Shown here in pieces: positions 49,930 through 57,082 of a stretch of 64,000 nt of DNA (positions are counted from its first letter, which is position 1; every line of letters begins with the position of its first letter). The position numbers were made by a program, and so were the translations under genes. Origin of the DNA: Oscillospiraceae bacterium (GTDB lineage Bacteria > Bacillota > Clostridia > Oscillospirales > Acutalibacteraceae); contig SVPF01000001.1 of the NCBI GenBank assembly GCA_015066005.1, positions 44,997 to 108,996 on the forward strand, in the 5' to 3' direction. The notes beneath the pieces were generated by a model. That model ran no database searches. It saw only the letters and a program-made list of their open reading frames with translations, and was not told the origin of the DNA.

Positions 49930-50173
49930 TAAAAAACAAAAAAACTCCGTCCCTAATAAAAGGGACGAAGCATAATTTCTCCGCGGTTCCACCCAAATTC
50001 CGAAAAATCGGCACTTAAAATACCCTTAACGCAGGCTAAACGGTACGGGTTTTTGACCCCCGCACAGCTCAAAGGCGGTTTCACTTAAAGTCGGTTTAGT
50101 GGGCTTGCAGCCGGTGACCCACATTCTCTTAAAACTTCACATTTAAGCTAATGTCCTTATCAATGCTTTTCTA
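49930..50173 (-). ncRNA. T-box leader of thrS
   Basis: Minus strand contains TGGGTGGAACCGCGG (49981-49995) followed by terminator CGTCCC-ttttatta-GGGACG-GAGTTTTTTT (49941-49967). Confidence 0.95.
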
Positions 50174-55485: not shown

Positions 55486-55516
55486 GCACCTCCCTTACGG
55501 AAGGTGCCTCATTTAT
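55486..55516 (+). terminator. Intrinsic terminator
   Basis: GAGGCACCT-cccttacgga-AGGTGCCTC followed by a T-rich stretch. Confidence 0.75.
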
Positions 55517-55569
55517 TGGGAGAAACTTCTTTATGAAGTGTATGCCAAAAGCGGATGCTTTTTTATTCC

Positions 55570-55620
55570 AAATAAAAACCGACTGCGTAAACAAAACTTT
55601 TTACACAGTCGGTTAAATTA
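55570..55620 (-). terminator. Intrinsic terminator ending the minus-strand small-ORF unit
   Basis: Minus strand AACCGACTGTGT...ACGCAGTCGGTTTTTATTT. Confidence 0.7.
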
Positions 55621-55639
55621 TTTCAATATTCATTTTTTA

Positions 55640-56262
55640 AAAATTCTTCTTTCGTTTTTCCGTTTTTAATGCCTTACGCGGCACCTGCATATCAAGGGGC
55701 GTTCCCCTAGTTAAATTATTATTTTACGGAGCAAAACCTTTTTTTAAAGTTAAATAGTACATTGGACTCACCCTTACAGTTTATTTAATGGAATAAATTC
55801 TTATTTTCATTAAAATCACCGAACTTTTAATATATGTTATCTTTTAAGATTAACATTTAACTGTACATTGGTCTCACCTTATCAATTTATTTTTTGATAA
55901 AATAAATTTCTACTTTCATAAAGCATCACCGGGGGTTTATATATTCTGTCAAATCCTATTGGAAAAAACTTAAACTAAATGAAAACTCTTCCCGCCTTTA
56001 TTTAAAACTTTATTAAATTTATTTTCAAGACCATTTTAACCTTATATTATATAAAGTCCCTTTCGGGCCCGCTTAAATATCAAAACCAAAATTTACACTT
56101 TTAAACCAGGTTATTTTCAAAACCCTTTTTTAAAGATTTAAAAGCCCACAAACTTAAAATTTTGTTATTTAAGTGTTCTTACTTCATTGGAATCACGCCT
56201 TTCTTTTTTATTTAAGAAACCTTTCAGGTGGAGTTAAGTCTTTCATTTTTTTGCTCCTCCTT
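55640..56262 (-). other. Transcribed unit with degenerate ~110-bp modules and tiny ORFs; no long ORF
   Basis: Module starts at 56246, 56120, 56028, 55919 and 55810. Tiny ORFs MKDLTPPERFLK, MKVEIYFIKK, MYS, MKIRIYSIK, MYYLTLKKGFAP. Confidence 0.5.
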
Positions 56263-56277
56263 TCTCTTTCTGTCTTT

Positions 56278-56307
56278 ATTGTAATGTATAATGCACAAAA
56301 AGTCAAG
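56278..56307 (-). promoter_or_regulatory. Strong SigA-type promoter for the minus-strand small-ORF unit
   Basis: TTGACT-N17-TACAAT on the minus strand, then AAAGGAGGAG SD and ATG at 56246. Confidence 0.75.
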
Positions 56308-56468
56308 TAAAAGTTGATAACTTTTGTTACTTTTTACAAATTGTTCAAAAAATCTATTATTTTTTAGTCACTTATGATAAAATAGAATACACCAAAGGGA
56401 TAAATTTACACCCTTTTGAATTTTTAAAACCAAAAAACATACAATACTATTTAAGGAGAATTTATAAA

Positions 56469-56774
56469 ATGGCTGAAATGGAAAAGGACTATAACCCCGA
56501 CTTAATAACCCTTTCGGATGATGACGGCAAGGAATACACCTTTGAAGTGCTTGACGCAATCGAAACCGACGAAGCAAGATATTTGGCACTTCTGCCTACC
56601 TATGACGACCCCAAGAAGATGCTTGAGGAAAGCGGTGAATTGGTAATTGTTAAGGTTGGCGAAGAAAACGGCGAAGAATATTTTTACGAAATTGAAGACG
56701 ATGATGAGTATGAAACTATTGCCGATGCCTTCATCGACCGTTTGGAAGACTTTTTTGAAATTGATAATAAATAA
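56469..56774 (+). CDS. DUF1292 domain-containing protein
   Basis: 'LITLSDDDGKEYTFEVLDAIETDEARYLALLP', acidic small protein. Confidence 0.92.
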   Translation: MAEMEKDYNPDLITLSDDDGKEYTFEVLDAIETDEARYLALLPTYDDPKKMLEESGELVIVKVGEENGEEYFYEIEDDDEYETIADAFIDRLEDFFEIDNK

Positions 56775-56869
56775 TACTGTTTTTGCATTTTTAGGATGTC
56801 GCAACGCCGAAGACGTACAGTAAGTACTTCGAGGCGTTAAGACAAACTTAAAATCAAAAAGATTATTTA

Positions 56870-57066
56870 AGGTCCTGTTTTGTTCGCGGACCGTTGCTTA
56901 TATAACCCTACACTTTTAATTTTTGGGGCAATACTCTCGCGTAATGGGAATGCAGACCTCCCGCGGCTGTGCCGAGTTCGGAAGAAGGGAGCTCGAAGTT
57001 ACGCGGTGTGCACCCACCTGCTGTACTGCAGGTTATCATTAAGCACATTACGGCAAAACGGGATCT
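56870..57066 (+). ncRNA. 6S-like RNA candidate (SsrS)
   Basis: ~195-nt rod-like fold: GGTCCTGTTTTG (5') pairs with CAAAACGGGATC (3'). Inner pairings GCTTA/TAAGC, ATAACC/GGTTAT, CGCGTAA/TTACGCG, CTCCC/GGGAG; side hairpin CCTGC-tgtact-GCAGG. Plausible promoter upstream, terminator downstream. Confidence 0.5.
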
Positions 57067-57082
57067 TTTAGGTTAAATTAAA

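Follow-up and report, generated by a model that had tools for sequence, protein, structure and literature searches.

A conserved array of micro-ORFs in gut Clostridia, a candidate translated RNA with repeated extended SD sites

On the minus strand of the window (the whole 64,000-nucleotide stretch of DNA analysed, from the metagenome-assembled gut Clostridia genome G000), positions 55570–56310 hold a predicted transcription unit with its own promoter and terminator, and a DUF1292 gene diverges from it. The parts of the unit, in the order of transcription, and the neighbouring gene are as follows (an asterisk in a peptide marks the stop).

56309..56325, minus strand: A/T-rich UP-like element AAAAGTTATCAACTTTT, directly 5' of the -35 box; A-rich in all relatives, palindromic in only part of them
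56301..56306, minus strand: -35 box TTGACT (TTGACA in most relatives)
56278..56283, minus strand: -10 box TACAAT, with a 17-nt spacer to the -35 box (TATAAT in most relatives)
56254..56263, minus strand: SD of ORF1, AAAGGAGGAG, predicted duplex with the 16S tail -16.4 kcal/mol
56208..56246, minus strand: ORF1, MKDLTPPERFLK*, with an xTPP motif that shows synonymous changes and an ATG, GTG or TTG start among relatives
56189..56203, minus strand: extended SD of ORF2, GAAAGGCGTGATTCC, -15.7 kcal/mol
56179..56187, minus strand: ORF2, ATG AAG TAA (MK*), behind GAAAGGCGTGATTCC
56056..56072, minus strand: hairpin region GCGGGCCCGAAAGGGAC; L045 shows a compensated pair
55887..55919, minus strand: ORF4a, MKVEIYFIKK*, SD CGGTGATG
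55857..55868, minus strand: ORF5a, MYS*, SD AAGGTGAGACC (55880-55870)
55781..55810, minus strand: ORF4b, MKIRIYSIK*, SD CGGTGATT
55724..55762, minus strand: ORF5b, MYYLTLKKGFAP*, SD AAGGGTGAGTCC (55775-55764)
55696..55707, minus strand: hairpin GGGGAACGCCCC; relatives have a different hairpin sequence at the same place
55613..55633, minus strand: ORF6, MNIEII*, whose stop codon abuts or runs into the terminator stem
55577..55614, minus strand: intrinsic terminator, 15 pairs and a T run
56469..56774, plus strand: divergent neighbouring gene, DUF1292 (PF06949); arrays also lie next to the homologous gene in other genera and in one further family

When the strand was re-read and the sites were scored, the promoter (TTGACT-N17-TACAAT), the strong SD, MKDLTPPERFLK* at 56246-56208 and the terminator all lay where the initial annotation had placed them, and frames of at least 60 aa are absent inside the unit, in agreement with its description of a transcript lacking a long ORF. 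The starts it proposed at 55919 and 55810 are present and paired with MYS* (55868) and MYYLTLKKGFAP (55762), and the second mini-ORF that it reported in module 1 corresponds to MK (ATG AAG TAA, 56187-56179). There is no start codon at 56120 (TTGAAAATA), and the start near 56028 stands as a weak candidate with a modest SD, in the form of an ATGGTC at 56034 where close relatives read ATG GTC TTG/TTA TAA; the regular spacing of 126/92/109/109 therefore does not hold. Two conserved micro-ORFs, MK* as such (start 56187) and MNIEII*, had been overlooked. The micro-ORFs of the window array span 2 to 12 codons, the array is single-copy in its own genome (genome search), and GGTGAKWCCRATG occurs twice in the window, both times inside the unit, with 0 copies expected. 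The promoter pattern alone is not above chance in the window (6 found, 5.9 expected), and the match carries weight because it is conserved among relatives. Right after the terminator, a segment of about 53 nt (55515-55567, minus strand) has one further copy in the genome at 85% identity (G000:C20).

Micro-ORFs were counted where an ATG opened an ORF of 2–15 codons and the sequence before it paired with the 16S tail at -8.5 kcal/mol or better, the duplex energies being those of the canonical 16S tail, which may differ from the tail of this host. By this count the window array holds 6 SD+ATG micro-ORFs (0.47 ± 0.85 in dinucleotide shuffles), while 29 homologous loci hold 116 (6.5 ± 2.5, maximum 11, in the same kind of shuffle), figures that count sequences rather than events because close relatives are not independent. 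With -16.4 kcal/mol for ORF1 and -15.7 for MK* (canonical tail), the first two SDs rank among the strongest in the window, where the median of 45 ORFs is -10.4. Most other module SDs are no stronger than those of ordinary genes. Apart from one extra base, the modules resemble a sequence complementary to the whole 16S tail (AGAAAGGAGGTGATCC), and they carry CC(A/G/C) directly before the ATG, as do 0 of the 45 ordinary window ORFs. Most of the 71 distinct ATG modules (59) stop after one or two further codons, with all three stop codons in use, and 28 of the 71 do so after a single codon, the minigene layout of SD, ATG, one codon and stop that MK* at 56187-56179 shows. Start choice in S. aureus is governed by extended SD-16S pairing (PMC13009471), and the modules resemble those sites in pairing past the core SD toward the start codon; the S. 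aureus examples, however, are single sites in ordinary mRNAs, whereas the array has repeated sites, the extra base and CC beside the ATG.

In one subclade and some other genera, 25 modules have AAR instead of ATG and retain the SD half. These AAR modules (L013, L016-L018, L020, L026, L035 (modules), L021, L047, L115) read NTG-AGT-CCN-AAR-...-stop in frame (SPKV*, SPKNSLV*), with the third position varying. Initiation at the NTG of NTGAGTCC was considered and rejected; the SD would lie only 0-2 nt away and the frame breaks when an ATG is present, so that the ATG is the likely start. Two further structural readings were set aside: a hairpin formed by GG..NTGANNCC could pair in part of the modules only, and the TPP codons of ORF1, read as a strand sequestering the SD, allow a modelled pairing, yet this pairing is invariant, and the third base of the first Pro codon is A or G, never the T that could pair.

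A DNA search matched the window array in its own genome and in 29 of 36 other genomes of the genus, and in 0 of 24 genomes of other families; on inspection of the loci, about 28 of the 37 genus genomes proved to have arrays, two weak matches that are not arrays (L030 and L033) being left out. The repeated layout of mini-ORFs behind a strong promoter, as first described, is borne out and conserved among relatives. The 5' order is constant, with an A-rich UP-like element, a near-consensus promoter, an SD and ORF1 with x-TPP-x, followed by a module GGTGA(N)TCC-N-ATG AAG TAA and then by further modules; the 3' order is likewise constant, with ORF4, a module ATG TAC… 18-19 nt further on, a hairpin, the last ORF and the terminator. 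A palindromic operator had been considered at AAAAGTTATCAACTTTT, and the palindrome is lost in several relatives, so the segment is read as an UP-like element. The gene downstream is not conserved, and behind the terminator lies a convergent gene in most arrays. Promoter, terminator and ORFs together point to a stand-alone layout with a conserved small ORF, as in dual-function sRNAs.

Several features suggest that the micro-ORFs are translated. The start codon of ORF1 is ATG, GTG or TTG according to species, and stop codons vary too; ORF4 keeps about nine codons (M-x-x-R-x-x-x-I-K), its length being maintained with indels of three. Codon changes in TPP are synonymous in 15 instances and not in 6 (9:18 expected per single step), and those in LD.K...K in 16 and 6 (5:31 expected), the preservation of xTPPx in ORF1 by synonymous changes constituting a coding signature. 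A read-through or frameshift joining ORF4 to ORF5 was rejected: the frame between the two is not constant (0 or +1, depending on the species), so that they are separate ORFs.

Beyond the genus, GGTGAKWCCRATGTACARTTAA was found in 21 stretches of public genomes, all from uncultured gut Clostridia, and among 394 genomes of the order a looser MY* module pattern hit 16, which represent seven families, and the reversed pattern hit 0. A search by the DUF1292 neighbour recovered adjacent, divergent arrays of 0.8-1.45 kb in further genera, three from the family of the window and two from a second one. All of these have a promoter of the TTGACA/TATAAT type and GTGAGTCC modules, and most also carry a conserved micro-ORF of 17-20 residues. 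The presence of arrays beside DUF1292 in other genera and a second family indicates that the locus is old. No match was found in a phage collection, and the terminal ORF had 0 matches in a viral collection; two viral contigs with a single module in viral collections are probably chance.

The unit is genuine, and it is not the product of gene decay. Decay of one ordinary gene or of a tandem gene family, both raised in the initial annotation, would agree with modules that are repeated and of unequal length; it is rejected as extremely improbable because relatives keep the same micro-ORFs with synonymous changes and swapped start and stop codons, and a longer gene at this place is absent from all of them. 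Retention throughout the genus, purifying selection on the micro-ORFs and the orthologous arrays beside DUF1292 in another family also speak against it.

A leader or attenuator, in which stalling at the Pro-Pro of ORF1 or in the last ORF would control read-through into a downstream gene, draws on the Pro-Pro motif near the start of ORF1 and on the stop of the last ORF inside the terminator stem. Its case also includes two loci, L034 and L052, in which a single module and a terminator stand between co-directional genes of mobile elements. There the module GGTGAGTCCAATGTACA(A/G)TTAA (MYN* or MYS*; L034 1993-2014, minus strand; L052 186 and 1066, minus strand) directly precedes the terminator, among genes that include a giant helicase/methylase protein and, downstream in L034, a SpoVG-domain gene; these look like micro-ORF attenuators using the same module type. 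In the window, however, the attenuation system suggested in the initial annotation is improbable, since the unit ends in its own terminator and most species have a convergent gene behind it; at the remaining loci of the array form (type A) the following gene is not conserved, and the neighbours of the shorter form described next vary.

This shorter form (type B) is a predicted compact RNA with a promoter, a 5' MY(R/K/S), a structured core and a 3' MLD(I/T/N)K… that overlaps the terminator. At its 5' end, GACACAGAAAGGGTGATACCAATGTACAGGTAA encodes MYR*, MYK*, MYS*, MF* and similar peptides, and after a further 170-400 nt the 3' end, GAAAGAGAGGTTAAAnATG(ATG)TTAGATATCAAG…, encodes M(M/K)LD(I/T/N)Kxxx(K)*, its stop running into the terminator. 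Among the 394 genomes of the order, 41 gave matches to the type B last ORF, and these represent at least ten families (reversed pattern, 0); one of the matches, L144, is an ordinary gene, and the search pattern itself partly fixed the L and D, though not the K. A class-wide sample that included the order gave 4 of 291 genomes. Which stop codon the last ORF uses agrees with the 3' arm of its terminator, TAA going with TTA in 18 of 21 cases and TGA with TCA in 14 of 22; this agreement could partly reflect the A-tract and T-tract of a bidirectional terminator. In L116, from the family of the window, several modules are combined with a type B 3' end, and a nine-base terminator loop, GGUGAAAGA, recurs on changing stems in 4 type A terminators (the genus of the window) and 13 type B terminators. 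Judged by these two shared elements of sequence, array and shorter form are one family.

These data also bear on another reading, in which a structured regulatory RNA would bind 16S rRNA or a protein through its SD-like motifs and the ORFs would be incidental. A hairpin about 75 nt 5' of the type B last ORF covaries (0.361, compared with at most 0.177 when slid and 0 of 500 shuffles), the terminator loop is kept on changing stems, modules retain GTGAGTCC with AAR in place of ATG, and the unit has a fold z-score of -3.3. Covariation is nevertheless low in the close type A alignment, and the interchange of starts and stops and the synonymous bias are hard to explain without translation, which leaves this reading unlikely. 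Of the large structured RNA first suggested, the conserved hairpins hold, whereas the named families (OLE, ROOL, GOLLD, raiA) have no counterpart here, and no Rfam match was obtained in the loci of relatives. At the gathering thresholds Rfam returned in the window only a T-box leader at 49958-50172 (minus strand, 105 bits) and a 6S RNA at 56869-57068 (plus strand, 66.6 bits), both elsewhere than the unit; the 6S RNA directly follows the DUF1292 gene, and L013 likewise has one close to its array. With the cut-off relaxed to E up to 10, the best hit in the unit region was RsaD with 26.5 bits (gathering 50), on the other strand, and the joined micro-peptides gave no Pfam match. Measured against Rfam 15, Pfam and an open-access library, the RNA family is so far undescribed.

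Known systems share parts of the layout. Leader peptides and regulatory uORFs (TnaC-/Erm-type, S. aureus rbfL, antibiotic-sensing uORFs) likewise have very short ORFs, strong SDs, possible pause codons, and RNA structure and a terminator nearby; the array differs in having several ORFs per RNA, its own terminator and no regulated gene after it. Dual-function sRNAs (SgrS/SgrT, SR1 and RNAIII type) are also stand-alone RNAs with promoter and terminator that encode a peptide, but they have one small ORF and an antisense region, whereas ORFs of mostly 2-20 codons fill much of the array RNA. The bar minigenes of phage lambda consist of ATG, one codon and a stop and cause peptidyl-tRNA drop-off; like MK*, they are two-codon ORFs behind an SD, yet the array is bacterial, conserved, repeated, provided with its own promoter and terminator and mixed with longer conserved ORFs. 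STAB-SD type stabilisers in Bacillus have an SD at the very 5' end of the RNA; the array shares the 5'-terminal SD, but its SD precedes a minimal ORF and is repeated downstream, and there is a second ORF at the 3' end. OLE, ROOL, GOLLD and raiA/ModT resemble the array as long stand-alone Firmicutes RNAs of unknown or partly known role, and differ in lacking a covariance-model match to it and in not being arrays of translated micro-ORFs.

The reading we prefer, at a rough probability of 0.42, is a translated regulatory RNA that would dock ribosomes at repeated extended-SD sites; the RNA is probably transcribed, translated and abundant, and we propose the regulatory role as a hypothesis. The functional elements of this stand-alone, strongly promoted RNA would be ribosome-landing sites, each with a frame of mostly 2-20 codons. 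Extended SDs of the AAAGG-GTGA(N)TCC type would attract ribosomes to them by pairing with most of the 3' tail of 16S rRNA. The ribosomes may join a handful of residues, at some sites across slow codons (the PP motif of ORF1), and terminate almost immediately, including at the 3' end where the last ORF enters the terminator, so that occupancy of the sites could control the stability and structure of the RNA; if abundant, the RNA might hold small subunits and initiation factors and thereby report or dampen free translation capacity. We are more doubtful of the wider proposal of an order-wide family of stand-alone RNAs that, through arrayed extended-SD sites with minimal ORFs and a closing micro-ORF in the terminator, would chiefly engage ribosomes, as a sink for them or for initiation factors and as a translation-capacity sensor. 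Against docking count the ordinary strength of most module SDs other than those of ORF1 and MK*, and the behaviour of the AAR modules, which keep an in-frame stop without a good start, where pure docking needs none. Residues are conserved in ORF1, in ORF4 and in the last ORF, a sign that peptides matter too.

The main rival is a peptide array, in which the RNA would be a polycistronic message and the micro-peptides its products, acting inside the cell; candidates are xTPPx, MxxRxxxIK, MLDIKxExK and, in other genera, MDSESIARYHNGLCIVR-like peptides. Residues conserved through synonymous changes, lengths fixed with 3-nt indels and the retention of the 17-20 aa peptide in several genera speak for it. 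Half of the ORFs, however, encode only MK*, MYS* or MF*, whose length makes a role as effectors implausible, export signals are absent, peptide order and number vary and residues drift outside short motifs, and we regard the peptide array as improbable, if somewhat less so than the structured RNA with incidental ORFs.

Annotation assumes that a bacterial transcript is either protein-coding or non-coding, and the array RNA is apparently translated at many sites, a conserved predicted transcript of gut Clostridia that would yield mostly peptides of 2-20 residues. ORFs of two to nine codons, below the cut-off of gene finders, can thus be under selection. To our knowledge, almost nothing is known of RNA regulation in gut Clostridia, and ribosome engagement, if true, would be a new way to sense or buffer the translation capacity of a cell.

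The question is now testable in a cultured carrier of the shorter form, Vescimonas fastidiosa MM35, a human gut isolate whose plasmid pMM35_01 holds an unannotated type B unit (MT* … MMLDIKSEG*; L150 2318-2600, at about 65,180-65,470 of NZ_AP023416.1) between a TetR-family gene and spoVAC. Type B units also occur in tandem, two or three in a row (L054, L060/L118, L131), and one genome, G289, has four. Upstream of type B units lies a divergent second promoter, TTGAC(A/T)-N17/18-TATACT, directly followed by (N)ATATGTTGGGC (L062, L063, L065-L067, L069, L073, L122, L123, L134, L135, L137-L139, L143, L043, L050, L054); the predicted divergent transcript of about 30-45 nt is conserved in 18 of 22 type B loci, and a hairpin with a T run was detected in 10.
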